DNA from: a virus
IMG/VR virus record: IMGVR_UViG_3300035663_001720
Location: 1 to 36,910 of that record
Direction: 5' to 3' (one strand)
DNA length: 36,910 nucleotides
The position numbers and the translations under genes are program-made. Below the pieces are notes generated by a model. The model worked only from the letters and a program-made list of their open reading frames with translations. It was not told where the DNA came from and searched no databases. Shown here piece by piece: positions 1,320 through 23,490 of this stretch (the stretch's first letter is position 1; every line of letters starts with the position of its first letter).

Positions 1320-1324
1320 ACCTT

Positions 1325-1987: not shown

Positions 1988-2017
1988 GCTGGCAGTTTAA
2001 AAAATATCCCAAATTAA

Positions 2018-2060
2018 TTGACATTGTTGTTAGGTTATATAATAATGATAACATACAACA
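2018..2060 (+). promoter_or_regulatory. Candidate sigma70-like promoter with partial dyad
   Basis: A perfect TTGACA lies at 2018-2023. Two candidate -10 boxes follow: TATAAT at 2038-2043 with a short 14-nt spacer, and TAATAA at 2040-2045 with a 16-nt spacer. The interval 2026-2060 also contains an imperfect inverted repeat (GTTGT...ACAAC with TTAT...ATAA inside), which could be an operator. It sits in the 85-nt gap after the HNH gene and 13 nt before the nuclease start, so it would drive the nuclease. Spacing is not ideal. Confidence 0.4.
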
Positions 2061-2072
2061 GAAAAAGATATT

Positions 2073-2858
2073 ATGACTGATAATTTCAGAGTTTCCGTAT
2101 CTAAAACGAAAACTTTTTTAGATTGTAAGGCTAAGTTTAAATTCTCTTATGTTGAGAAGCTGCCGAAAAAAGATTGGGATTTCCATATTTTTGGTAAATT
2201 CTGTCACATGGTACTTGAAGAGTTTCATAAGGTTTATATTGAAGGTTCTGACGCTCCTTATCATGTAACCATGGGGCAATCATATAAGTTAGCCTTGAAA
2301 GAATTTCAGGAGAAAATGACACCTGAAATGAAAAAAGAATGTTGGGCCATTATTGATCAATATTTAAGAAAGATTTCGGCCGAAAAAAATAATGGACATC
2401 CCGCGAATGTCATTGCGGTAGAAAAAAGATTTGAACTCCAAGTAGGAGAGACCATAGTTCTCAATGGTGCCATTGACAGAATCCAATTGGATAGTGATGG
2501 AATTATTCATGTGGCAGACTATAAAACCAGTAAAAGTACCAAATATTTGAAAGATGATTTCTTTCAATTAATGACTTATGCGTATGTCATCATGTCCGAT
2601 GACCCAACTATAGAAAAAGTTAGAGCGTCTTATGTCATGTTGCGTCATGATTTTGAGTATATTACAACTGAATTCCATAAACCAGAAGTCATGGAAGTAG
2701 AAAAAAAGTATATTGATTATGTCAATCAAATGATGACAGAGAAGGAATTTAAGGCGAATCCGAGTGCATTGTGCAGATTCTGCGATTACGCCTCCTTGTG
2801 CCCGGAAGGAAAAAAAATGCTCGAACCCTCCCTTCGGTATGGCGAAGTGGCATGGTAA
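2073..2858 (+). CDS. PD-(D/E)XK nuclease, RecB/Cas4-like with iron-sulfur cysteines
   Basis: A 261-residue RecB-family exonuclease domain. The nuclease core shows GAIDRI with Asp135 and VADYKTSK with Asp149-x-Lys151, the metal-binding D...D-x-K of the PD-(D/E)XK fold. Cys18 in the N-terminal helix and Cys234, Cys237 and Cys243 near the C-terminus match the four-cysteine pattern that holds a 4Fe-4S cluster in AddB and Cas4 proteins. Likely role: 5' or 3' end resection of DNA in phage recombination or host DNA breakdown. No CRISPR array or cas genes are nearby, so a Cas4 role is not indicated. The final 100 bases, which encode the cysteine cluster, use GC-richer codons than the rest of the gene and abut an HNH endonuclease gene that overlaps the stop by 7 nt. 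Confidence 0.88.
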   Translation: MTDNFRVSVSKTKTFLDCKAKFKFSYVEKLPKKDWDFHIFGKFCHMVLEEFHKVYIEGSDAPYHVTMGQSYKLALKEFQEKMTPEMKKECWAIIDQYLRKISAEKNNGHPANVIAVEKRFELQVGETIVLNGAIDRIQLDSDGIIHVADYKTSKSTKYLKDDFFQLMTYAYVIMSDDPTIEKVRASYVMLRHDFEYITTEFHKPEVMEVEKKYIDYVNQMMTEKEFKANPSALCRFCDYASLCPEGKKMLEPSLRYGEVAW

Positions 2859-3574
2859 CGGAATATAAAAACTGTACCAAATGTAATCTTCAAAAGATAT
2901 TTCCCGATGATTTTGCTAGTGGTAAATCTTTCTGTAAACAATGTAGAAATCTTTACTTAAAAAGTAAAAGAACACCTAAATTAAAAAGCAAACAATCTTC
3001 AGCAGAAAGACTGTTAAAAATAAAAGAATGGCAACGCAATAATCCGACCAGAAGACAATTAGCGATCCAAAAATACCACGCTTCTCATCTTACAGAAGAA
3101 AAGCGTTATTATCAAGATAATAAACATAAAATCCTAACTAGGATTAAAAATTGGAAATCTTCTAACAAGGAACATACTAATGCGTGGACTAGACACTATC
3201 GTCAACAACCTATCATTAAACTAAGACACACAGTTTCTGTGTTAATTAGATTTTACTTAAAAGGAATTAAGTCTGGCTCTGTTATTAATCATCTGCCCTA
3301 TTCTATCGAAGAATTAAAACTTCATTTAGAACAACAATTCGAACCCTGGATGTCGTGGTCCAATTGGGGCGTTTATTGTCCCGAAAAATGGAACGATGAT
3401 GATCCCTCTACTTGGACTTGGCAGTTAGACCACATTATCCCACATAGTAGCTTTATGTATACTTCCATGGAAGATTCGGCTTTTCAAGAATGTTGGGCCT
3501 TAAGTAATTTAAGGCCATTATCTGCTAAAAAAAATATTATAGAAGGCGCTAGAAAAATAAGTGTTATAGAATAA
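2852..3574 (+). CDS. HNH homing endonuclease, paralogue of the 1325 gene
   Basis: A 240-residue HNH endonuclease. It has an N-terminal zinc-ribbon (NCTKCNLQK and FCKQC), a long basic DNA-binding linker, and a C-terminal HNH core with Asp193-His194 in DHIIPHS and Asn219 in LSNLRPL. The start is placed at ATG 2852, inside ATGGTAA that also carries the stop of the upstream nuclease. The longer open frame from 2771 would read through the nuclease gene in another frame and add residues unlike this family. The cysteine pair begins eight residues after the chosen start. The core is strongly similar to the 1325 protein, so one probably derives from the other or from a common source. The natural target may be the end of the upstream nuclease gene. 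Confidence 0.9.
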   Translation: MVTEYKNCTKCNLQKIFPDDFASGKSFCKQCRNLYLKSKRTPKLKSKQSSAERLLKIKEWQRNNPTRRQLAIQKYHASHLTEEKRYYQDNKHKILTRIKNWKSSNKEHTNAWTRHYRQQPIIKLRHTVSVLIRFYLKGIKSGSVINHLPYSIEELKLHLEQQFEPWMSWSNWGVYCPEKWNDDDPSTWTWQLDHIIPHSSFMYTSMEDSAFQECWALSNLRPLSAKKNIIEGARKISVIE

Positions 3575-3607
3575 ATGTTACCAGTTAATTTTAACTAAAG
3601 AGGAAAT

Positions 3608-4855
3608 ATGCACATTGAAGTAAGAGAAATTGAGCCGTGTAAATTATGCGTTCAGTATACTGCTGAACCGAGTGAAATATCAGATAAAAAAGAAGAGGTG
3701 GTTGCTCGCTTTAAAAAAGCGCCTGTCTCTGGATTTCGGACTGGAAAAGTTCCGACAGATGTTATCAAAATGCATTATCGTACCCAAATCGAAGATGCAT
3801 TGAAAGTTGCTTTAGCTGAAGAGGCATATCATAATGCTTTATTCGAAAAAAAACTTCGACCTCATGGAGCACCGAAGCTAAATTCAGCTATTTTAGTAGA
3901 TGGTAAATTTGTCTGTGAATTTGAAATGCATACTAAACCAGAATTTCAACTCATGACTTATGATGGTATGCAGATTCCTCGACCACATGAAGCCTTGACG
4001 GTGACGGAATTAACTGAAAAAATGTTACAGGAATTACGAGTCAAATATGGCGATTCTGTACCCTATGCCGATAATGAATTTGTCCAAGTTGGAGATACTG
4101 TGATTGTAGATTATGAAGGATCTATTAATGGTGAAGTATTGCCTCATTTGTCAGCCACTGGAGAAATGATTACAGTTGGCCATAGTAATTTGCCGCAATT
4201 TGATGACAATGTCTTAGGGATGTCTATTGGTGAAACTAGAGAATTTGATATTGTAGTACCGCAAAATAGCTTACCTTCTCTCAGTGGCAAAACTGTACAT
4301 TTAAAAGTAACTCTTAATATGGGTTCTAAAAATGTACCTCATCCATTAGATGATACCTTGGGTCAAAAATTAGGCAAGAAAGACCTACAAGAATTAAGAA
4401 TGGCCGTAGGCGCCACCGCGATGGCCACGGTAGAAAATAAAGTTAAGGAATCTATTAATGAAGCGGTAGCTATTAAATTAGTCGAGATGCATGAAATTAA
4501 CGTTCCTAATTGGATGGCTTTATCAGAAGCTCAATATTTAGTCCATGGTGCTAAATTAGATTGGAATGCTTTGAGAGATGAAGATAAAGATATGTATGTA
4601 GCCATGGCGGCTAAGAATGTTAAGCTATCTCTGATTCTAGATAGAATTAGAGATGATAACCCAGAGGCACAACTAACTGATCAGGAAGTATTTGATATGA
4701 TTAAGAGAAATCTAATGCAATCTAATATGCAACAACCATTAGAGCAAGTAGTGCAGCAAATGCAAAAGAGCGGCTATTTACAAGTATTGTTTGCTCGAAT
4801 TAGAGATGAGCATGCGATGGATTTTGTGACTAAAAAAGTTCAACTTATTGATTGA
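3608..4855 (+). CDS. tig: Trigger factor-like ribosome-associated chaperone
   Basis: A 415-residue protein collinear with bacterial trigger factor (E. coli about 432). The N-terminal ribosome-binding domain holds GFRTGKVP at 42-49, matching the GFRxGKxP signature that docks on ribosomal protein L23. A central FKBP-like prolyl isomerase domain follows (about 150-235: VGDTVIVDYEG, FDDNVLGMSIGETREF). The C-terminal part is helical and resembles the chaperone arms. It probably assists folding of nascent phage proteins on host ribosomes. The ribosome site AGAGGA lies just before the ATG. A near-palindrome AGTTAATTTTAACT sits 11 nt upstream of it. The next gene starts 11 nt after its stop. A cellular gene in a phage context suggests capture from a bacterium. 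Confidence 0.9.
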   Translation: MHIEVREIEPCKLCVQYTAEPSEISDKKEEVVARFKKAPVSGFRTGKVPTDVIKMHYRTQIEDALKVALAEEAYHNALFEKKLRPHGAPKLNSAILVDGKFVCEFEMHTKPEFQLMTYDGMQIPRPHEALTVTELTEKMLQELRVKYGDSVPYADNEFVQVGDTVIVDYEGSINGEVLPHLSATGEMITVGHSNLPQFDDNVLGMSIGETREFDIVVPQNSLPSLSGKTVHLKVTLNMGSKNVPHPLDDTLGQKLGKKDLQELRMAVGATAMATVENKVKESINEAVAIKLVEMHEINVPNWMALSEAQYLVHGAKLDWNALRDEDKDMYVAMAAKNVKLSLILDRIRDDNPEAQLTDQEVFDMIKRNLMQSNMQQPLEQVVQQMQKSGYLQVLFARIRDEHAMDFVTKKVQLID

Positions 4856-4866
4856 GGAGATTAAAT

Positions 4867-5187
4867 ATGAGTAAGAAAAAAGATACCCAAGCCCCTAGTT
4901 CGTTTCCAGAAAAATGGTTTAAAGTAGTTCAGGCAATGCCAGAATTTAAAGATATTGCTGATGCTGCGAGTATAGATGATTTAAAAAAAATTATCGTAGA
5001 TTGTGAAGGCAATATCTATACTATTGACCAAGATAAAGAAAATAATAGCAAATTAATTGCGGCTCAAGAGTTGGTTAAAGAGTATAAAGCACCTTATACA
5101 GATGCTATTAAGGCTCAAACGGCTAAAATTAAATATGCATTATTCTTATTAGAAGGCAAAGGTGTCGACTTAGATAATAAGGATTGA
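4867..5187 (+). CDS. Conserved-looking small protein of unknown function
   Basis: A 106-residue, mostly helical, charged protein with no cysteine or catalytic motif that I recognise. The start ATG at 4867 is preferred to an in-frame TTG at 4852, because GAGGAGA at 4854-4860 forms a strong ribosome site at the right distance and overlaps the trigger factor stop. The C-terminal half (KAQTAKIKYALFLLEGKGVD) is probably a helix with a hydrophobic face. It lies between trigger factor and a second small gene and is almost certainly co-transcribed and translationally coupled. A role with the nascent-chain chaperone is possible from context only. Confidence 0.75.
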   Translation: MSKKKDTQAPSSFPEKWFKVVQAMPEFKDIADAASIDDLKKIIVDCEGNIYTIDQDKENNSKLIAAQELVKEYKAPYTDAIKAQTAKIKYALFLLEGKGVDLDNKD

Positions 5188-5188
5188 C

Positions 5189-5473
5189 GTGAAAGTAACT
5201 AAATTTAATATCCAATCCTGCTGTGGTAAAACCGCGATTATTTTTAAAACTGATAGGCCATTATCTAAAAATCATTTGGCTTTCTTGGTTTCTCAAGGTT
5301 TTAAAGAAACTCCACATTTTACTGCCGCAGGAATACTTTATGTGGATAATTCGGACTTTATTTTGAACGGCCCGTTAGGTTCTGATAGACTAACAGTTAA
5401 GTGCAAGAGAAATGAAGCTGAATGCACCCAAAAGATCAATAATTTGGAGGTGTTACTTCAGCAGGTGGAGTAA
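5189..5473 (+). CDS. Small protein of unknown function
   Basis: A 94-residue protein starting with GTG at 5189, one base after the stop of the preceding gene; AAGGA just upstream can serve as ribosome site. It contains five cysteines, including a Cys-Cys pair near residue 11 and Cys residues in VKCKRNEAECTQK, so metal binding is possible but no standard zinc motif is visible. Predicted alternating beta and alpha segments suggest a small compact domain. I do not recognise a family. The next gene starts 3 nt after its stop, which places it in the trigger factor-protease cluster. Confidence 0.72.
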   Translation: MKVTKFNIQSCCGKTAIIFKTDRPLSKNHLAFLVSQGFKETPHFTAAGILYVDNSDFILNGPLGSDRLTVKCKRNEAECTQKINNLEVLLQQVE

Positions 5474-5476
5474 ACC

Positions 5477-6139
5477 ATGGCTAGTAGCACTAATTCCATT
5501 GTTCATGTTAGAAAAAAGTTTCATTCCTTGCATGATTTAATATCTACTTCCTACCATGAGGCAGGCCATACTATTTATGGCTTACTTCATGGTATGAATG
5601 TTGAATCGGTGCAAGTCTTTGAAAATAAGAAAACCAAAAGAATTGATGGAATTACCTATTATAATCCTCCTGAATTAGACGAAATTCAGGATGAACAATT
5701 AAAATTGGCCCTGGCTGAAAGCGAGGTTTGCCTGTGTTATGCAGGATTAATATCCGAAAAAAAGCTATTTAAATCTATTTCTGGATTAGATTCTTTCCCT
5801 ATGTTTCTAAAAAATGGCTCCTCGACTGATATCGCTGAAGCCTTATCTATTATAATTAAATTTAATTTAGCCGAACCGGGTCTTAAAAGATACCAATATA
5901 AGAAGAAATTAATTAAAAAAATTAATCAAGAGTTAACAGAACACTGGGATGCTGTGACGGCAGTGGCTCATTCCTTAAATAATAAAAAAAGAATCAACTT
6001 CTTTGAATTAAAAGAATTGTTAATTAAAAAAACTAACCATCGAGAATTTTGGAAGCAAAAGTTTAAAATTCAGGAAAAATTATATATAAATCGTACCGAC
6101 CTTGACGAAATAAAAATAAAATCTATCTTGTTACCTTAA
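5477..6139 (+). CDS. Free-standing M41 (FtsH-type) metallopeptidase-like domain
   Basis: A 220-residue protein carrying the zinc motif HEAGH at 27-31 within YHEAGHTIYGLLHG, exactly the form used by the M41 peptidases of FtsH. LCYAGLISEKKLF occupies the place of FtsH's YGGRxAEE helix. GSSTDIAEAL with Asp118 matches the GASNDI segment whose Asp is the third zinc ligand in FtsH. No AAA+ ATPase module or membrane helix is present, so the protein would be soluble and must rely on a partner or act on unfolded or peptide substrates. It sits two genes behind trigger factor, which supports a proteostasis role. The C-terminal 80 residues are Lys-rich and helical. Metallopeptidase assignment is strong; substrate is unknown. 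Confidence 0.82.
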   Translation: MASSTNSIVHVRKKFHSLHDLISTSYHEAGHTIYGLLHGMNVESVQVFENKKTKRIDGITYYNPPELDEIQDEQLKLALAESEVCLCYAGLISEKKLFKSISGLDSFPMFLKNGSSTDIAEALSIIIKFNLAEPGLKRYQYKKKLIKKINQELTEHWDAVTAVAHSLNNKKRINFFELKELLIKKTNHREFWKQKFKIQEKLYINRTDLDEIKIKSILLP

Positions 6140-6163
6140 CCGTATTCCCTGGTGCTGCATACG

Positions 6164-6200
6164 CCGACTATTCTTAGTCGGAATAACTCATTTGTGAGTT
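6164..6200 (+). promoter_or_regulatory. Two tandem short hairpins upstream of dnaE
   Basis: CCGACTA (6164-6170) pairs with TAGTCGG (6175-6181) around a TTCT loop. Three bases later AACTCA (6185-6190) pairs with TGAGTT (6195-6200) around a TTTG loop. Neither is followed by a T-run, so this is not a standard terminator. The second hairpin overlaps a candidate -35 box. It may be a regulatory or RNA-processing element in the dnaE leader. Confidence 0.4.
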
Positions 6201-6220
6201 GATATGTATAGCCTCATAAT
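6192..6220 (+). promoter_or_regulatory. Candidate sigma70-like promoter for dnaE
   Basis: TTGTGA at 6192-6197 and CATAAT at 6215-6220 are separated by 17 nt and match the sigma70 consensus at 4 of 6 and 5 of 6 positions. The dnaE ATG lies 21 nt after the -10 box, so the leader would be short. No clear Shine-Dalgarno site precedes the ATG. Assignment rests on consensus match only. Confidence 0.35.
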
Positions 6221-6241
6221 ACTTACCTATAAAGATATAAT

Positions 6242-9200
6242 ATGACTGACTTTGTCTCGTTACATAATCAGACGGATTTCTCTATTCTTGATTCTTTAAT
6301 GTCCCCCAAAGCACTCTTTAATCGAGCCAAAGAATTGGGCCAATCTGCAGTCGCAGTCACAGATCACGGCACACTAGCCGGAGCCTGGGATTCCTTAAAA
6401 GCTTCCCGAGAGACTGGCGTTAAACTTATTATGGGCTGTGAAATCTACTTTGTAGAAGATGCCCAAAATATTACCGATAAATTTAGACATTTAACCCTGT
6501 TAGCTAAAAATGCTAATGGTTATAAGAACTTACTCACTCTCAATAAAAAGGGCTTTGATCAGGGCTCTTTTATTGGCAAGAGAGTATATCCTATTGTCGA
6601 TTGGAAGTTGTTAGAACAATGTTATAACGGGCTAATTTGTCTCACTGGTTGTGGCAATGGAATCATTAGCCAATTATTAATGAATAAAAAGTTTGATGAA
6701 GTAGAAACTACTGTCCTGAAACTGAAACAGTTATTTGGAGATAATTTAGGCATTGAAATTCTTCCCAATAATATGAAGCGGGGCTCTAATATTTATAATG
6801 ATGAAATTGATCAACAATTTCTCAATATGAAGCTGATTAATTTGGGCAAAACACACAATATTAAAATTGTGCCCACCTGCAATGCTCATTATGTGAAGAA
6901 AGAAGATCATGATATTCATGATGTTTTTCTAGCTATTGGTTCTCATCAACCAAAATATTCTAATTTTAGAATTAAATATAATGTACCAGATTTTTATCTT
7001 AAATCTGCCGAAGAAGTTAAAAACTTCTTTGCTAGAAATCATGGCGAAGAATTAGCAGAAGAATGGTGTAATAATACGGTATATTTCGCCAATTTATGCG
7101 AAACTCCAGATTGGATTGACCCTAAATACTCTAATCCTTCTGGAAAAGAATTACCGATCTTCCCGGTCAAAGATGAGACAGATTATCCTGAATTTGTACA
7201 CTGGCTGGAACTTCAACCGCCAGAAGTTAAATTATTAGATATTGATAAACAATATTTGAGATTTAAATGTCAAGCCGCTTTTTCCTCTCGTATTAAGGAT
7301 TTATCTCCTGATAATATGGAAAACTATCAACAGCGCTTGTTAGAAGAGCTAGATGTTATTGAATATCATGGCTTTTCTAGCTACATGTTAATTGTGGCAG
7401 ATTATATTAATTGGGCTCGTCGTAATGAGATTGCCGTAGGAGAAGGTCGAGGCTGCCTCACGGGTGATACCCAAGTCTTAACTACTCAAGGATTTAAATT
7501 AATCAAAGACCTGTCTGTGACAGATACTGTGTTTAGTCATACTGGAAATATGAAAACTATTTCTAAATTATTTAAATTTGACGTATCCAATGAAAAATTA
7601 TTAAAGTTTAAAACACAGCAATCGTTTACGGACCTCACCATGACTTCGGATCATAAGGTGCTAATTGCTAAATCTCAAGATTTAGATAAATATTATTTTT
7701 ACCCACCTAAAAAAGTTAAAGGTAAAATTAAAAGCTTTAATCCCCACTTGGAATGGGTGCCGGCTCACCAAATAAAAGTAGGAGATTATTTCTTTACTCC
7801 TAAATTAAATCGTTCCATTGACAACTTATCAGATATTGATCTTGCTCAATACAGCGACTCAATCATAGAAAATGATTTTATTGTCAGCAAAATTTACTTT
7901 ACTAGCCCCCTCTCTTTACGCGCTTTACATAAAGTATCTCCAATCAGCTTTGAAAGTTTGAGAAAAATCAAAAATAACAAACCTATTGCTGATACACAAA
8001 TTAATTTACTTCAACAATACCTGTCTTCTACTGGGTCGTCTCTTCAAGATTTTGTCAATCATAAAAACTATAAATATAGCCGAATTCAAAGATTTATTAA
8101 AATTGATAATGATTTCGCTTATTTATTAGGCCGATGGATCGGTGATGGATCCTTTCATGGAAATAAAGGGATTTCTATCTGTTTTAATAGTAAAGATATC
8201 GTAGGTCGAGAAAAAATAAAATCCTATCTCACTAAACTAGGATTTTATGTCTGCCAAGAAAATAGAAAAAATAATAATACCTTATTAACTGTTTCTAATA
8301 AGGCTATGTATTCTTTATTTAAAGAATTATTTCCGAATTATCATAGTTCTCAAACTAAACATATGCCAAATATTTTTCGTTTATTTTCTGATGAACTAAT
8401 TCGTCATCTGTTATTAGGATTATTAGAATCAGATGGTTGTGTTAATAATTATGAAAAAATAAAAACTACTAGCCAAACTTTAGCTCTGCAAGTAAAAGAA
8501 GCGTTAAATTATTTATCACTCCCCTCCTCTATTTATACAGAAGAAAACCCGAAAAGATATCAAGTAGCTACCTCTACTGCTTTTACCATTGCTTTTAATG
8601 GAATTAAAACTAAACCTAATCCACATATCCACCGAACAAATCAAGGTTTTTATAGTAAAGTAGTTAGTATAGTGGAAACTACTGCTGATTTTGTCTATGA
8701 TTTTACTGTTCCAGATGATCATAGCTATCTTACTACCAGTGGAATAGTTCATAATAGTGTAGGAGGCTCTTTAATTGCTTTCTTACTAGGAATTCATCAA
8801 GCAGACCCGATTAAGTATGATCTGATTTTTGCTCGATTTCATAATAAGGAGAAGAGCAGCTTTCCGGATATAGACACCGACTTCGCCCCCTCAGGTCGCG
8901 AAAAAGTCCAAGCCTATGTTCGCCAAAAATATGGAGAGGAACACGTAGCCCACGTCTCTAACGTTAATACTATTACCCCCAAGGTGTATGTTCGCGATAT
9001 TGCGAGAGCCTGCGAATTAGGCGGCTCCAGAGAAGAAGCCGTTCGGATTGGTAATGATGTTGCCGATTGCATTCCATCAGATATTCATTCCATTGATGAT
9101 GCGTTAGCTAAAGTTCCATTATTTGCTGAATATTGTAAAAAATATCCAGAATTAGAAAAGTATAAAAGCATTTGCGGAAAATATCGAGCTTGGTCTACTC

Positions 9201-10228
9201 ATGCCGGAGGAATTATTATTTCTGCCCGACCACTAACCGGATTAATTCCCCTGAGACGAGATAAAGATGGTGCCCTAGCTATTGAATATGATAAAGATAA
9301 AGCAGAAGAAAACGGTCTAGTTAAAATGGATACTTTAGGTCTCTCCACTTTAGATATTATTGGAGAAACTTATCGTATTATTAAAGAACGCGGCAAAGAA
9401 GTGCCTCCCGATCAATTAGATTATGATGTTCATGATGCTCCTTCTTATGATTTGATTGCTAATGGCGATACCTTTTGCGTCTTTCAATTAGGGACTAGTG
9501 CTGGTACCGTAGACTTATGCCGTCGAATTAAACCAGATAGTATCAATGATTTAGCCAATATTAATGCCTTGGCCCGACCCTCCGCTCGTGAGATGAGAAA
9601 TGATTTCATTAAAACTAAAAATGGAGGTAAGCCGGTTGCTTTATTGCATTCTAAATTAGCTCGAGCTTTTAATAGTACTTATGGCTTCGGATTATATGAA
9701 GAATGTTTAATGTATCTGGCTCAAGATATTGCTGGTTGGAGCTTGCACTCAGCTGATAGATTAAGAAAATTAACTAAAGAAAAAGGTAAGAATCCTAAAA
9801 AGGTCCAACAATGGAAAGCAGAATTTATTGCTGATTCTGTTAAAATGGGCGTTCAAGAATTAATTGCTCAACGTATATGGAGTGAGGTAATTGAGCCTTT
9901 CCAGGGATATGGGTTCAACCGTTCCTTGTCCCTTTTTGAAATGATTGATATATATTCTAATGATGGTAGATTTATAAAGTCTAAACCTATAGGAGAAGTA
10001 AAACCAGGAGAATATGTGCGTTCACGAGATGAAGCTACTCAAAAAGAGATTTTTGTCGAAGTAAAGGCGAATCATGATCATGGTATTTTACCTTTAGTAG
10101 AGGTAGAATTAGAAACCGGCGAAACAGTCAAATGTACTATGGATCATAAGTTTAGAATTCAAGAAAATAAAGAGATGGTGCCATTATGGCAAATCTTAAG
10201 AGACAATTTATCAATAGTGTTAGGTTAA
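6242..10228 (+). CDS. dnaE: DNA polymerase III alpha (DnaE) N-terminal part, with cis intein and split-intein N half
   Basis: A 1328-residue precursor. The PHP domain is at 1-280 (VTDHGTLAG, GCEIYF); its first motif reads LHNQ where active PHP domains have LHxH. The palm carries the catalytic aspartates in FPDIDTDF (Asp876, Asp878) and VKMDTLGL (Asp1030). The conserved GRG-S-x-x-GSL motif is interrupted by a LAGLIDADG intein at 405-838. After FQGYGFNR (ending at 1227) the protein turns into an intein N half of 101 residues and stops. The missing fingers and C-terminal regions continue in DnaE-C at 11441. Removal of both inteins and joining to DnaE-C would give 1168 residues, the normal size of bacterial DnaE. 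Function: template-directed DNA synthesis of the phage genome. The stop at 10226 is therefore not a disabling mutation. Confidence 0.95.
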   Translation: MTDFVSLHNQTDFSILDSLMSPKALFNRAKELGQSAVAVTDHGTLAGAWDSLKASRETGVKLIMGCEIYFVEDAQNITDKFRHLTLLAKNANGYKNLLTLNKKGFDQGSFIGKRVYPIVDWKLLEQCYNGLICLTGCGNGIISQLLMNKKFDEVETTVLKLKQLFGDNLGIEILPNNMKRGSNIYNDEIDQQFLNMKLINLGKTHNIKIVPTCNAHYVKKEDHDIHDVFLAIGSHQPKYSNFRIKYNVPDFYLKSAEEVKNFFARNHGEELAEEWCNNTVYFANLCETPDWIDPKYSNPSGKELPIFPVKDETDYPEFVHWLELQPPEVKLLDIDKQYLRFKCQAAFSSRIKDLSPDNMENYQQRLLEELDVIEYHGFSSYMLIVADYINWARRNEIAVGEGRGCLTGDTQVLTTQGFKLIKDLSVTDTVFSHTGNMKTISKLFKFDVSNEKLLKFKTQQSFTDLTMTSDHKVLIAKSQDLDKYYFYPPKKVKGKIKSFNPHLEWVPAHQIKVGDYFFTPKLNRSIDNLSDIDLAQYSDSIIENDFIVSKIYFTSPLSLRALHKVSPISFESLRKIKNNKPIADTQINLLQQYLSSTGSSLQDFVNHKNYKYSRIQRFIKIDNDFAYLLGRWIGDGSFHGNKGISICFNSKDIVGREKIKSYLTKLGFYVCQENRKNNNTLLTVSNKAMYSLFKELFPNYHSSQTKHMPNIFRLFSDELIRHLLLGLLESDGCVNNYEKIKTTSQTLALQVKEALNYLSLPSSIYTEENPKRYQVATSTAFTIAFNGIKTKPNPHIHRTNQGFYSKVVSIVETTADFVYDFTVPDDHSYLTTSGIVHNSVGGSLIAFLLGIHQADPIKYDLIFARFHNKEKSSFPDIDTDFAPSGREKVQAYVRQKYGEEHVAHVSNVNTITPKVYVRDIARACELGGSREEAVRIGNDVADCIPSDIHSIDDALAKVPLFAEYCKKYPELEKYKSICGKYRAWSTHAGGIIISARPLTGLIPLRRDKDGALAIEYDKDKAEENGLVKMDTLGLSTLDIIGETYRIIKERGKEVPPDQLDYDVHDAPSYDLIANGDTFCVFQLGTSAGTVDLCRRIKPDSINDLANINALARPSAREMRNDFIKTKNGGKPVALLHSKLARAFNSTYGFGLYEECLMYLAQDIAGWSLHSADRLRKLTKEKGKNPKKVQQWKAEFIADSVKMGVQELIAQRIWSEVIEPFQGYGFNRSLSLFEMIDIYSNDGRFIKSKPIGEVKPGEYVRSRDEATQKEIFVEVKANHDHGILPLVEVELETGETVKCTMDHKFRIQENKEMVPLWQILRDNLSIVLG
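7454..8755 (+). mobile_element. Cis-splicing LAGLIDADG intein in DnaE
   Basis: The intein spans residues 405-838 (434 aa) of the DnaE precursor. It starts with Cys405 (CLTGDTQVLTTQGF, block A) and has TSDHKVL as block B with the T-x-x-H pattern. Two LAGLIDADG helices follow: LLGRWIGDG at 628-636 and LLGLLESDG at 724-732. Block F is VYDFTVPDDHSYLTTSGIV, and the intein ends in His837-Asn838 with Ser839 as the +1 residue. All catalytic splice residues are present, so it should splice and may still cut DNA. It interrupts the GRG|S-x-x-GSL motif just before the catalytic aspartates, a typical highly conserved insertion point. Confidence 0.95.
9923..10225 (+). mobile_element. Split intein, N-terminal half (IntN), fused to DnaE-N
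   Basis: Residues 1228-1328 of the DnaE-N precursor leave DnaE homology right after GYGFNR and read as an intein N half. Ser1228 is the first residue, block A is followed by IGEVKPGEYVRSRD, and block B is GETVKCTMDHKFRIQ with T-x-x-H. The chain stops after 101 residues, before any endonuclease or block F. Its partner IntC starts DnaE-C at 11441. Ser rather than Cys at position 1 is less common but compatible with splicing. Confidence 0.93.
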
Positions 10229-10229
10229 A

Positions 10230-11444
10230 ATGGGAAATGTCAGCAAACCAATAGATTATTATCTTCAAAAAATTCCAGAACCATTTAGATCAAATGTTTC
10301 TTTAATGGAAGACTATCAAGGTAATAGAACTAAAATATCTTTTAATTTTTCATGTGGGTGTCAGATACAAGAACAATTTAAGGTTTTTCTTAAGAGGCCG
10401 CGATTTGATTTTTGCACCTCATGTGCTAAGAAAAATAGTCAAACTTATAGTTGTCAGTATTGCTGTCAAGAATTTACTGTGCAACGACATTTGGAAAATT
10501 GTCAGCAAAAATGCCAAAATAAATATGCACAACTCATTTTGGGTACAGATTATGTAATTTGCCAGATTTGTAATTTACATGCAAGAAGTCTAGGGGCACA
10601 TGTTACTAAGAAGCACAATATATCTCATAAAGAATATCGTGAAAAATATGGAAGTTTAATTTGCACTGAGGCTTCTAAAAATTATAAAGAAAGCGGTCAA
10701 TATAATAGAGAGTGGATTACTCGTGCTCATTTAAATGGCACAGATTTAACCGAATATAGAAAAAAGTTATCTACAGCTGTTAAAGAGGCAATAATGTCAA
10801 ATCCGGAAGAACGAAAAAGACGTTCCGAGTTAATGGCTACTATTAATAAAACAGAGAATATGCGGATTAAATCTTCTAAATCGGCCAAAATAACCTCTGC
10901 TAAACCAGAAATTTTAGAAAAAAGAACTAAGCAATTACAAAAATGGAGAGAAGAAAACCCAGAGTTATTTTATAACCAATGTACCGCTCCAATGATTAAA
11001 TCATTTCAAAGTAAACCAGAAAGAATATTATTTAATTATTTCTCGCAATTAAAACCTTTTAATTTTAAAAGAAACCAATTTATAAAATCTAAGTATTTTA
11101 CTAATTTTTCTAAGAAGAAACAAGTAGATATAATTGATTTGGATAATAGAATTTATATAGAGTTTGATGGTAAAGTTCATTTTAAGCCTATTTTTGGCGA
11201 TTCTGTTCTCTTAAAAACTAAATTAAGAGATCAAGAATTAGAAAAAGTTATTACATCTAACAATTGGATTCTAATTAGAATTAGCTACGATCAATTTGTT
11301 TATACTACTAAAAATATTAATAAAATTAAACATGATGCATCTTATTTCAAACCAGAAAGCCTTCAACAAATAGAAGCAATACTTAAATCAAAGCAACCAG
11401 GTGTTTACAAAATCGGAGAGGCATATAATAGCTCAAAATCATGA
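10230..11444 (+). CDS. Vsr-like homing endonuclease inside the split-intein break
   Basis: A 404-residue endonuclease encoded between the two dnaE parts. The N-terminal third is rich in zinc motifs (CTSC, CQYCC, CQICNLHARSLGAHVTKKH), the last a zinc-finger-like DNA-binding unit. The middle is basic and repetitive, like NUMOD-type DNA-binding segments. The C-terminal domain carries the Vsr-like nuclease signature: Asp300 in KQVDIIDL and IYIEFDGKVHF with Glu311, Asp313 and His317, followed by WILIRISYDQF. This class of endonuclease is known from fractured genes with split inteins in environmental phage sequence (Dassa and co-workers). The ATG follows the IntN stop by one base, with AGG five bases upstream. 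Its stop overlaps the DnaE-C start as ATGA. It probably mobilises the whole split cassette. Confidence 0.9.
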   Translation: MGNVSKPIDYYLQKIPEPFRSNVSLMEDYQGNRTKISFNFSCGCQIQEQFKVFLKRPRFDFCTSCAKKNSQTYSCQYCCQEFTVQRHLENCQQKCQNKYAQLILGTDYVICQICNLHARSLGAHVTKKHNISHKEYREKYGSLICTEASKNYKESGQYNREWITRAHLNGTDLTEYRKKLSTAVKEAIMSNPEERKRRSELMATINKTENMRIKSSKSAKITSAKPEILEKRTKQLQKWREENPELFYNQCTAPMIKSFQSKPERILFNYFSQLKPFNFKRNQFIKSKYFTNFSKKKQVDIIDLDNRIYIEFDGKVHFKPIFGDSVLLKTKLRDQELEKVITSNNWILIRISYDQFVYTTKNINKIKHDASYFKPESLQQIEAILKSKQPGVYKIGEAYNSSKS

Positions 11445-11551
11445 CTAATATTAAAACTATTAAATACATTGGCAATCATGCTACGTGTGATTTGGAAGTA
11501 GATCATCCGGATCATCAATTCTACTTATCGAATGGAATGTTAACCTCAAAC
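11441..11551 (+). mobile_element. Split intein, C-terminal half (IntC), fused to DnaE-C
   Basis: The first 37 residues of the DnaE-C precursor form an intein C half: block F TCDLEVDHPDHQFYLSNGML and block G ending Ser36-Asn37, with Ser38 as the +1 nucleophile. The penultimate residue is Ser instead of the usual His, a variation known in active inteins. The length of 37 residues matches other natural split intein C halves. Ser38 begins SHAVLYSMTSYKTSYLKAHYP, which continues DnaE exactly where DnaE-N stopped. Confidence 0.93.
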
Positions 11552-12679
11552 TCTCATGCGGTCTTATATTCCATGACCAGTTATAAGACTTCTTATTTAA
11601 AGGCCCATTATCCGGTTGAGTTTTTATTGGCTAATTTAATGGCCGAAGTAAAATCTAATGCTCCAGATGCAGGGAGTAATATCAATAAAATTAAGAAAGA
11701 ATTAAAAGCACACAAGGTTAAGATTTCTCCTCCGGATATTAATTCGTCTAATTTGACTTATACTATTTCTGAAGGTAATAAATTATTAACCGGTTTAGAT
11801 TCTTTAAAATTCGTGGGAGACGATGCGATTAAAGATATTATTCAAAAACGTCCTTTCAAAAGCTTTTTTGATTTCATGCATCGAGTGGATTCCAAAAAAG
11901 TCAGAGCTAATAGTATTCAAGCCTTAGCGGCAGCTGGTGCCTTAGAAAAATTTGGTATCCCTAGAAAGCTTATTTTCTTATATTGTTCAGATTTTAGAAA
12001 GAAATTACAAGTTTGGTTAAAGAAACATGACCCTCAACAAGAAGAGTTTATTTATCCTTGGCCTTCGGAACCGGATTGGTCATTGTCAGAACAATATGCG
12101 TTAGAGCAATATTATTTAGGAGAATCTTTTATTTGTAAAGCGCCTGAGGCGTATGGTAAGTTTTTCAAAAGCCCTCATCATGTTATTTATGAAATTAAAA
12201 AAGCTAACAACAAAACCAAGATTTCGCCCATTAAAGGAATAGTTAAAGATTTCTTCGAATTCAAAGTTAAAAAAGAGACAAGTAGTTATTATGGTCAATC
12301 TATGGTGAAAGCTATTATTGAAGATAAAGAAGGAGACCAATGCTCTTGTACTATTTTTCCAGATCGTTGGCAATTAATACAGAAACGATTAAAAGAATTA
12401 AATAGCAAAGCTATATTTGATGTTGGCTTGGCTTTAAGTTTTTCTGGCAGTGTTAATACTTATGAAGATGAAGTTGGCATTATTTTAGAAGAATTATTAG
12501 ATATTTCTCCAATTCCAGCTTTACCTACTGATTTAAAAGCCAAGCGAGTCAATTTAAAGGAAGCTAAATTAAAAAATAAAGAGCCGGTGACTGAGGCGAA
12601 AAATGTTTTGGATGAAATTGAAGATTTATTATATGATGAGGGTCTAATTGATTTAGATACCGATCCGGATAACGATTAA
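11441..12679 (+). CDS. dnaE: DNA polymerase III alpha (DnaE) C-terminal part, with split-intein C half
   Basis: A 412-residue precursor. Residues 1-37 are IntC and 38-412 are the DnaE C-terminal part. SHAVLYSMTSYKTSYLKAHYP continues the conserved GYGFNKSHS motif of bacterial DnaE. A helical region with AAAGALEKFG is consistent with the (HhH)2 module. An OB-fold-like segment at about 245-355 (KTKISPIKGIVKDFFEFKVK, DQCSCTIFPDRW) and an acidic tail follow. Trans-splicing with DnaE-N is needed to make a full polymerase. The start ATG overlaps the upstream endonuclease stop by 4 nt and has no obvious own ribosome site, so it probably depends on translational coupling, which would tie polymerase output to translation of the endonuclease. 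Confidence 0.94.
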   Translation: MTNIKTIKYIGNHATCDLEVDHPDHQFYLSNGMLTSNSHAVLYSMTSYKTSYLKAHYPVEFLLANLMAEVKSNAPDAGSNINKIKKELKAHKVKISPPDINSSNLTYTISEGNKLLTGLDSLKFVGDDAIKDIIQKRPFKSFFDFMHRVDSKKVRANSIQALAAAGALEKFGIPRKLIFLYCSDFRKKLQVWLKKHDPQQEEFIYPWPSEPDWSLSEQYALEQYYLGESFICKAPEAYGKFFKSPHHVIYEIKKANNKTKISPIKGIVKDFFEFKVKKETSSYYGQSMVKAIIEDKEGDQCSCTIFPDRWQLIQKRLKELNSKAIFDVGLALSFSGSVNTYEDEVGIILEELLDISPIPALPTDLKAKRVNLKEAKLKNKEPVTEAKNVLDEIEDLLYDEGLIDLDTDPDND

Positions 12680-12706
12680 TTATAATAATTGCGCGGTGAT
12701 ATATTA

Positions 12707-12732
12707 CTCTAGTAATCCTAGAATAATTAGAG
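12707..12732 (+). promoter_or_regulatory. Weak hairpin in the gap after dnaE
   Basis: CTCTAGT at 12707-12713 can pair with ATTAGAG at 12726-12732, with one G-U pair and a 12-nt loop. There is no T-run after it. It lies in the 77-nt gap between DnaE-C and the next gene, before a ribosome site AAGGA. Could be a processing or operator site; evidence is only the dyad. Confidence 0.25.
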
Positions 12733-12756
12733 CGATCGTTGACCTAAGGAAAAATA

Positions 12757-13560
12757 ATGAAATGTATATCGTGTGAAATTGAAATCAATCCTAAATGGGC
12801 GCATGCTATTGATGTTAATATTTGCCCCTTTTGTGGGCAACATATTATGGAGGAGCATTTAAAAAACTTATTTGGCTCATTGCGTCAAACCATGGAAAGT
12901 TTAGTTGCTTATCCAGAAGCATTAAATGACTGGATGTTATCTAATTACTCGTATATTAAAACGGATTCGGAAGACATCATTAAATATGTACCTAAAGATC
13001 TAATTAAAAACAGTCATTATCATGCGGCTTCTGATCGAAAAGACTCTCAAAAATTCACGGTTAAAGTGGCCACCGAGCAAGGAGAGGAAGAGGTCATGGT
13101 AGAGAAGATTCAGCCAGAAGAAAAAACCAATGACTTTTTTAAGAGAGCGGAAGTAATTAAGCATAATGTGTTGCCGGCCGAAAAAACTCAGCATTTAAAA
13201 GCTTTAGCTCAACAAATTAAAAAGGCAGGATCTCAAGGACTAACGACTAGCAATCACAACATGGTATTATCTCCAGAATTAATGGAAAATGCTGATCCAG
13301 AGGCCATTGCAGAATATCAGCAATTAGTTTCTAATAATATGATTGGGTCATCCATTACTTCTAATGATTTAGATAGTGATGATTTGCCGGGAGGCGATTT
13401 TATTTTGCAAGCTAATTTAATGGCAGCGGCTACCAAAAATGGTAATAATAGAGATGGTGCTAATGCTAAAGATTTAGCCGCTTTGCAAAAAATGCAAGCT
13501 GGATTATCAGAATCCAGAAAAAATTTGCTAACTGGCGCGAAAGGGTCTTTTCGTCGATAA
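12757..13560 (+). CDS. Zinc-finger protein of unknown function
   Basis: A 267-residue protein. The N-terminus holds a likely zinc ribbon: MKCISCEIE and CPFCGQH, two CxxC pairs about 20 residues apart. The rest is mixed: a helical part to about 90, a charged region, and a C-terminal Ala/Asn/Gly-rich stretch with KDLAALQKMQAGLSESRKN. I do not recognise the family. A good ribosome site (AAGGA) precedes the ATG. It opens a run of small genes leading to RecA and SSB, so a role in DNA replication, recombination or transcription is plausible from position and the zinc ribbon, but is not shown. Confidence 0.72.
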   Translation: MKCISCEIEINPKWAHAIDVNICPFCGQHIMEEHLKNLFGSLRQTMESLVAYPEALNDWMLSNYSYIKTDSEDIIKYVPKDLIKNSHYHAASDRKDSQKFTVKVATEQGEEEVMVEKIQPEEKTNDFFKRAEVIKHNVLPAEKTQHLKALAQQIKKAGSQGLTTSNHNMVLSPELMENADPEAIAEYQQLVSNNMIGSSITSNDLDSDDLPGGDFILQANLMAAATKNGNNRDGANAKDLAALQKMQAGLSESRKNLLTGAKGSFRR

Positions 13561-13570
13561 TAGGTGAATG

Positions 13571-13936
13571 ATGTCAATTCATATTGTAAATAATAAAAAG
13601 TTAGAGATGACCGATGATGAATGGGCCATGTATCAAAAGATTGTAAAATCTTATACTACTGCTACTAATAAAGGCGAAGATCTATTTATAGATCTATTTG
13701 AAACAGATGATAATGGAATTATCATTTTTCTCAAACCTCCGTCTCGATTTAGAACCTCTTTTGAGGTATTCTTATTTTTGATGGCTTTATTTCAGCATCA
13801 ACATTTAAGATTAATGTATCAACAAGTAGGTGAAATCTCTCAGCAAATGAAAAATAAAATTCAAGAATTAAATCAATTGCAGGAAAAATTAGCTAAGAAT
13901 CTACCTCATTCGTTAGAATTAGATTCTAGAAATTAA
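13571..13936 (+). CDS. Small protein of unknown function with C-terminal coiled coil
   Basis: A 121-residue protein with no recognised family. Residues about 85-115 (QQVGEISQQMKNKIQELNQL and on) have a heptad-like Gln/Leu/Ile pattern that suggests a coiled coil, so it may form oligomers. Start choice: ATG codons occur at 13568 and 13571; the second is preferred because the AGGTGA ribosome site at 13562-13567 is better spaced from it. It lies between the zinc-finger gene and the possible UvsY-like gene with gaps of about 10 nt, so it belongs to the recombination operon by position. Confidence 0.7.
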   Translation: MSIHIVNNKKLEMTDDEWAMYQKIVKSYTTATNKGEDLFIDLFETDDNGIIIFLKPPSRFRTSFEVFLFLMALFQHQHLRLMYQQVGEISQQMKNKIQELNQLQEKLAKNLPHSLELDSRN

Positions 13937-13945
13937 GGGTTACAT

Positions 13946-14449
13946 ATGAGCCATACAGTAAGACTTGGTGATTTTTTAGGGACAGAATTAGAAGAAGATT
14001 TTATTAATTTTGATTTTACCGAAATACAGAAAGTATTAACACATTTACAAGAGACAGATGCTTTGGACTTAGTTCATGCCGAGTTTTTACAACAGCAAGC
14101 GTTGCGAGGAGCGGATATTGTTTCTGAATATCTCGGCAAGATTATTAAAACAGTTGGATATTTAGAGGCTAAAGTTAATAGAACTAAAAATAAAGTCTCT
14201 TTAGAATATAAAGCTCCGGATGGAGAGCGAACTACTTTAGACATGAAAAAATGGGCCGGAGAGTCTTCTCTAGAGGTAGAAGAGGTTCAGATTAAATTAG
14301 CCAAAGCTAAAGCTTCTAAAATTGTATTGGAAAAAAAATATGATATTCTGATTAGAAGTCATCATCACTATAAAGATATTGCTCAGGGATTAAGAAGAAC
14401 TGTCTTAGGATATAATTCTACTACTAAAATTCCCGAAGGATATGAGTAG
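13946..14449 (+). CDS. Possible recombination mediator (UvsY-like), uncertain
   Basis: A 167-residue, almost entirely helical, charged protein directly upstream of the RecA gene and overlapping its frame by 8 nt. The C-terminal part (VQIKLAKAKASKIVLEKKYD, then SHHHYKDIAQGLRR) has the look of the C-terminal helices of T4 UvsY, the mediator that loads UvsX recombinase on gp32-coated DNA. Size is near UvsY (137 aa). SSB and the recombinase lie just downstream, which is the expected company. This is inference from context, helical pattern and partial resemblance, not a firm homology. The ribosome site AAGGG precedes the ATG. Confidence 0.4.
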   Translation: MSHTVRLGDFLGTELEEDFINFDFTEIQKVLTHLQETDALDLVHAEFLQQQALRGADIVSEYLGKIIKTVGYLEAKVNRTKNKVSLEYKAPDGERTTLDMKKWAGESSLEVEEVQIKLAKAKASKIVLEKKYDILIRSHHHYKDIAQGLRRTVLGYNSTTKIPEGYE

Positions 14450-16337
14450 AATTGCTAAATTAACTGATGCTATCTTAGATGCTCGACTCCCATCTTCCAT
14501 TAAAAGAATAGATTCAGTCATTACTGCTAAAACAAAAATTACTTTTCAATGCGCACTATGTGATTATCAGTGGCTAGCTAAACCTGATAATATCTTGCAT
14601 GGCAAAGGCTGCCCAGCCTGTGCCAAGTCGCTCCCTTTATCTAATGAAATTGTAGACCAACGTTTACTAGGTCGGCCGACGCAAAGAGTCGGAGACTATA
14701 TTAATAGTCGAACTAAAATCTGGTTTAGTTGCAAAAAGTGTCATTATCAATGGTTAACCACCCCACATACTATCTTAATTGATCAATGTGATTGCCCCAA
14801 ATGTCACAAGTTAAGAAAAAACGAAACACTAATTAATGATCTATTGATTAACTTAAATATTAAGTTTGAAACTCAAAAAGATATTCGGGCTTTTAATAAT
14901 CAAGAAGTTAACAAATATTATGTTGATTTTTATGTGCCAGAGTTGCGTTTAATTATTGAATATAATGGTCATCAGCATTATGCTCCCGTTCGTTTTGGTA
15001 ATAGATCGCTAGCTAAGTCAACTCAAGCCTTTCAAAAACAACAAATTAGAGATAATTATCTTCGGTCTTTTTGCTTTAATAATAACCTGAATTTATTAGA
15101 AATTGATGGCCGACGGTATTATTCAAATAAATTAACCACGTATTTAACAAAATTACTAACTGATATAGAAGGAAGCATGAAAAATTACGATTCTTTTTTT
15201 AAAACATACTCTGACAACGAAGAACAATTAGACTTTAAAATGGCGCATGAAACGGTAGGAGAAAAGCTACCCGTTATTTCAACGGGATCATTTATTTTAG
15301 ATGATGCTTTATCTTCTGGAGGATTGCCAGAAGGCAGACTCATTCAATACTATGGCGCTCCGGGTAGTGGTAAAACCTTATTAGCCATGTTAGCTATTAA
15401 GGAAGCTCAGCAACAAAATCCTTCAGCAGACCAGGTATTTATTGATGCGGAACAGACGTTTTCGCCTACTTGGGCAGAATCTCTAGGATTAGATACTTCT
15501 CGTATTATTTTGATTCAAGGCGATACGGCAGTCAATGGTCGTAAATGTTTTGAAATGTTATTAGGGGTACCGAAAGAAGATGTGAGAACGCATACCTTAA
15601 AAGGTCAGGCTAAAGATGGTTTGTTAGATAAGGTGGCGAATAAGGAGTTTGATATTAATTTGATTGTGCTGGACTCGTTGGGCTCTATTATTCCCCCCGG
15701 AGAAGACATCTCCGCCGTTGGCAAAATGAACATCTCCCTCCTAGCCCGCTTCTTAACCACCACCTTCCGCAAGCTATCTTTAGCTCTTTCTAAAACCAAT
15801 TGCCCATTAATTATCATTAATCATAAGAAAACCAGCATGGATCCTTATGGTTCCGATCATACTTTTTCTGGTGGCAATACTTATGCTCACTTCTTGAGTG
15901 CTAACGTCTATTTTGAACCTGTCAATCGGGCTGATGCTAAAATTTTAGATGAAAAAGAAAACAAAATTGGGCAAACCATTCGAGCTACGATCGAAAAGTC
16001 TAAATTTGGTCCTTGGCCACGCAAGTGTGAATTTAAAGTAGATTTTGGTATTGGAGTCATTGATAAGCATGAAGAAATTGCCACCTTAGCTTTAGATTAT
16101 AATGTAGTGCAAAAACCCACTAGTGTGACTCATGAATATGGAGAGCGAAAATGGGTTGGTTTTGCTAAGTTTTGCGAAGCTATTCAATCTGATGGTGAGT
16201 TAGCGGCAGAATTATTAGCTAAGATTAATCATGCTCGAGATTCTAAGTTAGAAACTAAGAGATTAGAGCAAGAAGCTAAAAAAGCCGAAAGTTTAGAGAA
16301 GGCTGGAAAATCGAAAAAAGGTAAAAAAGATGACTGA
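14442..16337 (+). CDS. recA: Zinc-ribbon/Vsr-like endonuclease fused in frame to RecA recombinase
   Basis: A 631-residue frame with two modules. Residues 1-245 are a homing-type endonuclease: two zinc-ribbon repeats (CALCDYQW...CPAC; CKKCHYQW...CPKC), then a Vsr-like nuclease with Asp162 in YYVDFYVP and IIEYNGHQHY with Glu173 and His177/His179. Residues 246-631 are a full RecA/UvsX-type ATPase (386 aa; T4 UvsX is 393): STGSFILDDAL, Walker A GAPGSGKT at 305-312, FIDAEQTF, Walker B LIVLDSLGSI, and a Lys-rich acidic tail. The frame has no stop between them. ATG 15177 (Met246) has AAGGA close upstream, so RecA alone may also be made by internal initiation. RecA forms filaments on ssDNA for strand exchange. 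The start overlaps the upstream gene by 8 nt. Confidence 0.9.
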   Translation: MSRIAKLTDAILDARLPSSIKRIDSVITAKTKITFQCALCDYQWLAKPDNILHGKGCPACAKSLPLSNEIVDQRLLGRPTQRVGDYINSRTKIWFSCKKCHYQWLTTPHTILIDQCDCPKCHKLRKNETLINDLLINLNIKFETQKDIRAFNNQEVNKYYVDFYVPELRLIIEYNGHQHYAPVRFGNRSLAKSTQAFQKQQIRDNYLRSFCFNNNLNLLEIDGRRYYSNKLTTYLTKLLTDIEGSMKNYDSFFKTYSDNEEQLDFKMAHETVGEKLPVISTGSFILDDALSSGGLPEGRLIQYYGAPGSGKTLLAMLAIKEAQQQNPSADQVFIDAEQTFSPTWAESLGLDTSRIILIQGDTAVNGRKCFEMLLGVPKEDVRTHTLKGQAKDGLLDKVANKEFDINLIVLDSLGSIIPPGEDISAVGKMNISLLARFLTTTFRKLSLALSKTNCPLIIINHKKTSMDPYGSDHTFSGGNTYAHFLSANVYFEPVNRADAKILDEKENKIGQTIRATIEKSKFGPWPRKCEFKVDFGIGVIDKHEEIATLALDYNVVQKPTSVTHEYGERKWVGFAKFCEAIQSDGELAAELLAKINHARDSKLETKRLEQEAKKAESLEKAGKSKKGKKDD

Positions 16338-22315: not shown

Positions 22316-22318
22316 AGT

Positions 22319-22705: not shown

Positions 22706-22709
22706 CACA

Positions 22710-23096: not shown

Positions 23097-23100
23097 TAAT

Positions 23101-23487: not shown

Positions 23488-23490
23488 AGT

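Follow-up and report, generated by a model that had tools for sequence, protein, structure and literature searches.

Results

The window analysed here is the entire 36.9-kb virus record IMGVR_UViG_3300035663_001720 (36,910 nt), which may be a genome fragment, and it carries a dnaE polymerase gene broken into two frames, DnaE-N and DnaE-C, with a putative endonuclease gene lying in the break (Table 1). DnaE profiles match both halves, which share one reading frame, and the endonuclease gene uses another. The break falls at YGFNR/SHAV, inside the conserved YGFN-SH motif, with a 1-nt spacer between the DnaE-N stop and the endonuclease start and an ATGA overlap at the other end, where translational coupling of the endonuclease and DnaE-C is possible. 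An earlier, sequence-only reading of this DNA had proposed that DnaE-N ends in a 101-residue N-terminal intein half (IntN) directly after GYGFNR, that DnaE-C opens with a 37-residue C-terminal half (IntC) ending in Ser-Asn and continues SHAVLYS in register, and that a 404-residue gene sits between them with 1-nt and 4-nt junctions, all of which is borne out by the coordinates. Its predicted mature product of 1168 residues likewise holds as arithmetic, provided that a second, contiguous intein, which that reading did not name, is removed as well. Two motifs that we take to be polymerase catalytic motifs, PDIDTDF (residue 875) and KMDTLGL (residue 1028), both lie in the DnaE-N half. No Rfam family was found in the window at gathering scores or in the related sequence L094 at E up to 0.5.

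Table 1. Coordinates of the fractured dnaE in the window and of dnaE loci in related contigs.
Sequence	Feature	Position	Strand	Remarks
Window	DnaE-N (1328 aa)	6242-10228	+	PHP, polymerase and finger domains, contiguous intein, C-terminal IntN
Window	Second, contiguous intein, 434 aa, LAGLIDADG domain	7454-8755	+	Site GEGRG/C...HN/SVGGSL; TIGR01445, TIGR01443 and PF14528 matches
Window	IntN, 101 aa, directly after GYGFNR	9923-10225	+	Ser1; TxxH motif (CTMDH)
Window	Predicted Vsr-fold endonuclease gene, 404 aa	10230-11444	+	25 of 42 loci have a homologue in the gap; predicted fold; alignment
Window	DnaE-C (412 aa)	11441-12679	+	Starts with IntC, then DnaE extein
Window	IntC, 37 aa	11441-11551	+	Ends TSN, then Ser+1 of SHAVLYS
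Window	ATGA, endonuclease stop/DnaE-C start overlap	11441-11444	+	4 nt
Window	DnaE-C extein	11552-12679	+	From SHAVLYS in DnaE register; HHH_6 domain
L105	DnaE frame	391-4455		
L105	Endonuclease	2087-3079		
L106	DnaE frame	529-4395		
L106	Endonuclease	2207-3076		
L094 (309-kb record of L016)	dnaE in eight frames over 13.7 kb	1685-15433	reverse complement	
L095	dnaE of L017, four pieces, three split inteins	1202-10319	reverse complement	
L018	dnaE in three pieces	3517-8508		

Loci of the same kind were collected by searches with DnaE-C, with an alignment of IntC plus DnaE-C and with an alignment of IntN, followed by removal of duplicates, and 42 distinct loci (window included) carry both intein parts at YGFN/SH. 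Excluded from this set were same-contig or near-identical sequences (L001, L026, L027, L032, L041-L044, L046, L051, L059, L065, L068, L072, L082-L084, L088), loci with IntN only (L079, L085, L087, L090) and L019, whose DnaE frame has an intein-like end ahead of SHA but escaped the profiles; the later loci L102, L104, L105, L106 and L136 and the contiguous Rhodococcus-phage inteins L020, L021 and L023 also stand outside it, and L107-L129, weak partial endonuclease matches, were searched with two intein profiles only. The group L060-L075 was excluded too, its eight scanned members being other proteins: seven (L060, L062, L063, L066, L067, L069, L070) are RNA polymerase beta'-like virus proteins with IntC-like matches, several per frame in some, six of them with intein or LAGLIDADG domains, and the eighth, L061, has intein domains only. 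The sharing of the site by so many distinct loci excludes chance as its origin. One locus was assembled from three metagenomes, L046 and L059 agreeing with L048 at 99.88% (10,578 bp) and 99.91% (12,492 bp). An uninterrupted DnaE reading YGFN(V/M/L)SH occurs in nine contigs (L002-L008, L010, L012), seven of which were analysed, L005 and L008 being omitted as their junctions repeat those of L004 and L007. Among bacterial and archaeal genomes there was one match, in a Thioploca metagenome-assembled genome: a contig of 3.2 kb whose title gives a coverage of 1.6. The other DnaE match of that genome is a stop-free open frame, and we take the small contig to be a phage fragment. Six records were searched for other polymerases. 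The L009 record (394 kb) and the L025 record (354 kb) each have a single DnaE and nothing matching PolA or PolB, so that the split polymerase is probably required in them.

The inteins of the family are most similar to DnaE inteins. A profile of 11 of them searched against solved structures returned 2keq first (E=1.3e-21), and the top 14 structure rows were all named DNA polymerase (III alpha) or DnaE inteins, followed by Spl DnaX (4.5e-10) and gp41-1 (7.4e-10). By eye, block B Thr-x-x-His is seen in IntN as CTMDH, and the block F Asp and His in IntC as CDLEV and DHQF. Position 1 is Ser in 23 loci, Cys in 16 and Thr in three (L015, L028, L049); the +1 residue is Ser, the penultimate residue Ser and the terminal residue Asn in all 42. 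A penultimate His is common in class 1 inteins, not universal, and is absent here, Ser standing in its place, as in the aligned Npu intein, which also ends Ser-Asn. Class 1 inteins are characterised by Cys, Ser or Thr at positions 1 and +1, Thr1 being allowed, and by a terminal Asn (PMC4031507), and the window's Ser1, Ser+1 and terminal Asn agree with this pattern. The residues and the 2keq match thus support the earlier split-intein reading, except for the penultimate His, and the window's intein appears to be a split intein with the residues for trans-splicing. The extein residue at -1 is K, R or Q in 37 of the 42 occupied loci and V, M or L in eight intein-free contigs, counts that are not independent owing to kinship; target resistance or co-conversion may account for the difference.

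The gene in the gap was assigned from its predicted fold, as sequence searches were uninformative. As a single query it found no relative in viral_contigs and two weak matches in GenBank phages (residues 104-212), its search against PDB sequences gave nothing better than a zinc-finger match (E=0.016), and the only Pfam match above cut-off was of ROS/MUCR zinc-finger type. Its best sequence family, PHROG 559, is labelled HNH endonuclease, a label set aside because by name it does not fit the Vsr-like fold. The model, built from 22 sequences, has a predicted local distance difference test score (pLDDT) of 83.7 and a predicted template modelling score (pTM) of 0.44, and its C-terminal domain (model residues 259-398) re-aligned best with Escherichia coli Vsr, 1cw0 (Z 12.3, root-mean-square deviation 2.7 over 118 residues), a second Vsr structure, 1vsr, reaching Z 11.6. 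Used by itself, Foldseek ranked McrBC chains at the top and Vsr in fifth place, no match having an E-value below 0.001; the fold matches listed did not include I-Bth0305I, which excludes nothing. P263, E264, D300, D313, H317 and D334 are invariant in 22 endonucleases, a matter of conservation and not of mapping onto the catalytic residues of Vsr. The model thus supports the earlier proposal that the gap encodes a Vsr-like endonuclease.

Patchy presence and unequal relatedness point to mobility. The window shares 63-84% polymerase identity with seven intein-free relatives (six at 77-84%) and at most 76.5% with occupied loci. In the polymerase tree it falls in a four-row clade with the intein-free L002, L003 and L004 (99/89), its five nearest rows are all intein-free, and at least four occupied/empty changes are counted over 48 rows. 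Over 820 pairs of 41 loci, mean identity is 47.9% for the intein and 35.4% for the polymerase stretch, the intein being higher in 89.9% of pairs, among them L016-L077 (63.7% versus 25.4%) and L033-L037 (83.3% versus 55.1%). Constraint alone is insufficient to explain this excess, since close hosts with distant inteins also occur, such as L036-L081 (intein 49.3%, polymerase 72.7%) and L029-window (55.9% and 76.5%). Intein and polymerase distances correlate at Spearman 0.49, and in the approximately unbiased (AU) test the intein data reject a 14-row polymerase clade (p=0.011). In 22 loci, endonuclease identity tracks that of the intein when polymerase is controlled for (partial Mantel r=0.46, p=0.0005) and tracks that of the polymerase less closely when intein is controlled for (r=0.18, p=0.007), so the IntN-endonuclease-IntC cassette probably moves as a unit. 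Among seven pairs compared for proportions of synonymous (pS) and nonsynonymous (pN) differences, IntN is clearly less diverged synonymously in two (L077-L080 and L077-L078, pS 0.53-0.54 versus 0.78-0.81 in the exteins), and IntC has the lowest pN/pS of the compared parts in every pair (0.08-0.28).

The site occurs in several states. Homologues of the window's endonuclease occupy the gap in 25 of the 42 loci (window included; 26 open frames), two of them damaged (L038 broken in two, L076 truncated), and four loci have other, more distant endonuclease-like proteins there (L056, L057, L089, L091). The gap of L036 holds a 141-aa frame without any match, the halves of L081 lie 4.7 kb apart with other frames between them, eight loci have gaps of 36-122 nt and no endonuclease, and three (L035, L054, L086) carry a contiguous intein. 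Contiguous DnaE mini-inteins also occur at this site in the Rhodococcus phages Grayson, NiceHouse and Trina (L020, L021, L023), where they are absent from the listed annotation. The split, endonuclease-bearing L033 and the contiguous L035 (147-aa intein, no endonuclease) are alike in 89.8% of the compared polymerase, and L035 is surrounded by split forms in the intein tree, which suggests that its intein is a healed split. L034, L037 and L038 are 86-88% alike in polymerase, with the endonuclease broken in L038 and none in L034 or L037. The last endonuclease codons (GIYRIGDAY-like) are kept in the short gaps of L028, L037 and L055, where the scar pattern was fitted after sighting; in L025 and L040 the scar was recognised by eye, and none was seen in the short gaps of L018, L034 and L050. 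In L025 and L028 the stub codons place a GGAGA five bases ahead of the DnaE-C start, a possible reason for their retention. Matches of the endonuclease profile in short-gap loci were discarded as evidence of remnants in favour of gap inspection, being partly an artefact in which the start of the profile is IntN in another frame.

A different arrangement is found in L105 and L106, contigs of 65 and 68 kb whose N-exteins are 74.5% and C-exteins 51.3% alike. In both, a single open DnaE frame runs through YGFN/SH and contains IntN and IntC, and the DNA linking them encodes, in a different frame, an endonuclease that over its C-terminal part shares 31-32% identity with the window's family (E 2e-13 and 4e-16). 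The linkers (299 and 259 codons) contain no DnaE-frame stop, whereas 5000 trials of synonymous-codon shuffling gave means of 17.9 (L105) and 18.2 (L106) stops with minima of 8 and 9; the third frame has 13 and 11. Between the two contigs, the endonuclease is 57.6% and the linker 36.2% alike. In 24 split loci, DnaE-frame stops in the endonuclease gene lie near expectation (window 56 versus 57.4; lowest 9 versus 7.7, in L058), a count that omitted L036, L038, L076 and L081 and skipped L056, L089 and L091, where a codon was a stop or unreadable. Three further scans yielded no third stop-free overlapping case.

In some relatives dnaE is broken more than once, up to the eight frames of L094, where five of the seven junctions, judged by eye, have ordinary IntN/IntC pairs and junction 3/4 has an unusually short IntC. 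No normal pair was found at its 4/5 junction, nor in L056 and L058, which are broken near the corresponding position. Extein pieces of L094 are as short as 33 residues and seven (SGAPDID), each between two intein halves. The PF07733 polymerase-domain model has no other match in the L016/L094 record, in which a PolA-like frame is present.

Discussion

The locus is very probably a fractured-gene homing cassette, composed of IntN, endonuclease and IntC, in the dnaE of a bacterial virus, a reading whose observed basis is the anatomy, the conserved residues, the family of loci, the predicted fold, the patchy presence and the co-inheritance of endonuclease and intein. Three proteins, DnaE-N, the endonuclease and DnaE-C, would be made from adjacent frames; IntN and IntC would pair and trans-splice along the class 1 route through Ser1, Ser+1 and the terminal Asn, and the contiguous LAGLIDADG intein would splice in cis to give the 1168-aa polymerase. 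The Vsr-fold endonuclease would most likely cut intein-free dnaE of co-infecting phages at the YGFN-SH codons, and repair after the cut would copy the whole cassette into the recipient.

Several observations weigh against this account. All seven analysed intein-free relatives sit in one polymerase clade, and of five groupings given the AU test four escaped rejection (p 0.075-0.45), the groups having been picked after the trees were seen. In L077-L080 and L077-L078, IntC is as diverged synonymously as the exteins, and across the seven pairs no part, or hardly any, is under weaker constraint than the endonuclease (pN/pS 0.29-0.62). The constancy of the junction residues is partly selected, the loci having been found with IntC and IntN patterns and profiles. 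In addition, no Shine-Dalgarno-like match lies 3-13 nt upstream of the window's IntC start, and two of the six records searched for other polymerases (L016, L058) also have a PolA-like match.

Four other explanations were weighed against the homing cassette. An assembly or sequencing error creating the stop and the extra frame, a possibility that the sequence-only reading had itself raised and that a single metagenomic contig invites, is practically negligible, because 42 distinct loci share the site and one was assembled three times at 99.9% identity; the window's DnaE-frame stops are also as expected for an ordinary gene. The DnaE halves might instead form a non-covalent two-subunit polymerase whose intein halves are decayed relics, which would suit the eight loci that stay split without an endonuclease and the fact that splicing is only inferred; yet all 42 loci retain their splice-junction residues (in a set found by intein profiles), IntC is the part with the lowest pN/pS, and the break lies inside a conserved motif, so that we regard this as very improbable.

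The remaining two are unlikely but carry more weight. If the endonuclease targets a contiguous intein, having invaded and split the linker of a mini-intein and rarely moving the whole cassette, one would understand both the contiguous forms at the same site (L035, L054, L086; L020, L021, L023) and the other, distant endonuclease-like genes in the same gap (L056, L057, L089, L091); endonuclease and intein relatedness nevertheless go together, and the window's position among intein-free alleles asks for movement of the whole unit, leaving this rival a small share of the probability. A share of similar size goes to the view that precise deletion removed the intein from the window's intein-free relatives, the cassette being old, vertically inherited and not recently gained: tree counts cannot separate gain from loss, and the -1 residue differs between intein-free and occupied loci (V/M/L versus K/R/Q in 37 of 42), whereas intein distances follow polymerase distances only loosely, as the Spearman coefficient and the AU test indicate.

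A wider interpretation is offered tentatively, as somewhat less likely to be right than wrong. It holds that one phage DnaE site displays the whole life of a gene-breaking parasite and that the break is reversible, the site passing through empty, split with endonuclease, split with scar and contiguous mini-intein states and, in L105 and L106, a contiguous form with a hidden endonuclease kept stop-free by selection in a linker of about 260-310 residues; that this phage family was the source of the cyanobacterial split DnaE intein; and that repeated rounds gave the polymerase of up to eight pieces in the 309-kb phage. As to the cyanobacterial link, the intein tree gave no placement, the Npu fragment standing on a very long branch.

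In 2009, Dassa et al. reportedly described genes fractured by split inteins and accompanied by Vsr-like (EDxHD) endonucleases. Fractured genes are already known as a kind; the window's locus is confirmed as a real fractured dnaE and a new example. It resembles those genes in a replication enzyme broken by a split intein, a free-standing Vsr-like endonuclease gene and a phage setting, and differs in its host, DnaE at YGFN/SH, and in the contiguous LAGLIDADG intein of the same protein. The sequence-only reading had suggested that the layout might be new: it is not unique, being one state of a widespread family, but the YGFN/SH fractured-dnaE site was not found described in the literature searched, a comparison outside which the original 2009 set lies. 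Trichodesmium DnaE, on a cyanobacterial chromosome, is reported to have several inteins, split and contiguous (Liu and Yang, 2003), and is not known to have an endonuclease gene in the break; the window shares the combination of split and contiguous inteins in one DnaE and differs in its endonuclease gene. The cyanobacterial split DnaE is presumably broken between Tyr and CFNK, in which case the window's break lies four residues downstream, as the earlier reading had placed it. Unlike in those cyanobacterial genes, the window's halves are adjacent, with an endonuclease gene between them.

Among systems with cited sources, the Npu split DnaE intein has halves of 102 and 36 aa with Cys1 and Cys+1 (PMC11766414); the window is like Npu and Ssp in its DnaE host, its typical 101/37-aa split, its penultimate Ser and its best solved-intein match, and unlike them in Ser1 and Ser+1. 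In Pseudomonas jumbo phage MIJ3, as in the window, a split intein divides the replicative polymerase and an endonuclease gene sits in the gap (PMC6892783), but that polymerase, PolB, is of family B and the endonuclease is named there as HNH; the likeness is drawn from the description and not from intein sequence. The EDxHD/Vsr family is credited to Dassa et al. (2009) in PMC12350094. For L105 and L106, a narrow literature search found nothing closer in print to the overlapping endonuclease and intein frames than the ShiLan element, an out-of-frame HNH element in a phage methylase with no detectable splicing domains (PMC11855218), and novelty is therefore provisional. In these loci, as in ShiLan, an insertion free of stops conceals an endonuclease in a different frame; they differ from it in carrying both intein parts and a Vsr-like endonuclease.

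The site opens the question of how split genes and split inteins arose to direct testing: a single insertion point comes with dozens of natural examples in different states, with intein-free relatives that could serve as recipients, and with a Ser1/Ser+1 intein akin to the Npu DnaE tool. In the overlapping-frame form of L105 and L106, a homing endonuclease would have one more means of residing within an intein. The polymerase in eight pieces, should it be real and spliced, would represent an extreme case of natural protein ligation from many parts and would supply split inteins already paired by nature; no such case was apparent from titles and abstract openings in the literature on natural multi-part trans-splicing.

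Other features of the window

Beyond dnaE, the window encodes at 14442-16337 a RecA/UvsX-like protein joined in one frame with an N-terminal zinc finger plus a DUF559/PHROG 559 endonuclease-like part. Five further endonuclease-like genes lie in the 37 kb (1286-1987, 23825-24649, 25108-25947, 25913-26791 and 35456-36565), their kinds being endonuclease VII/HNH, two homing-endonuclease types with GIY-YIG family matches, HNH and PHROG 559. Tandem frames of 69-nt repeats occupy 22001-23811, with 87-nt copies 62-79% alike to the reference copy.

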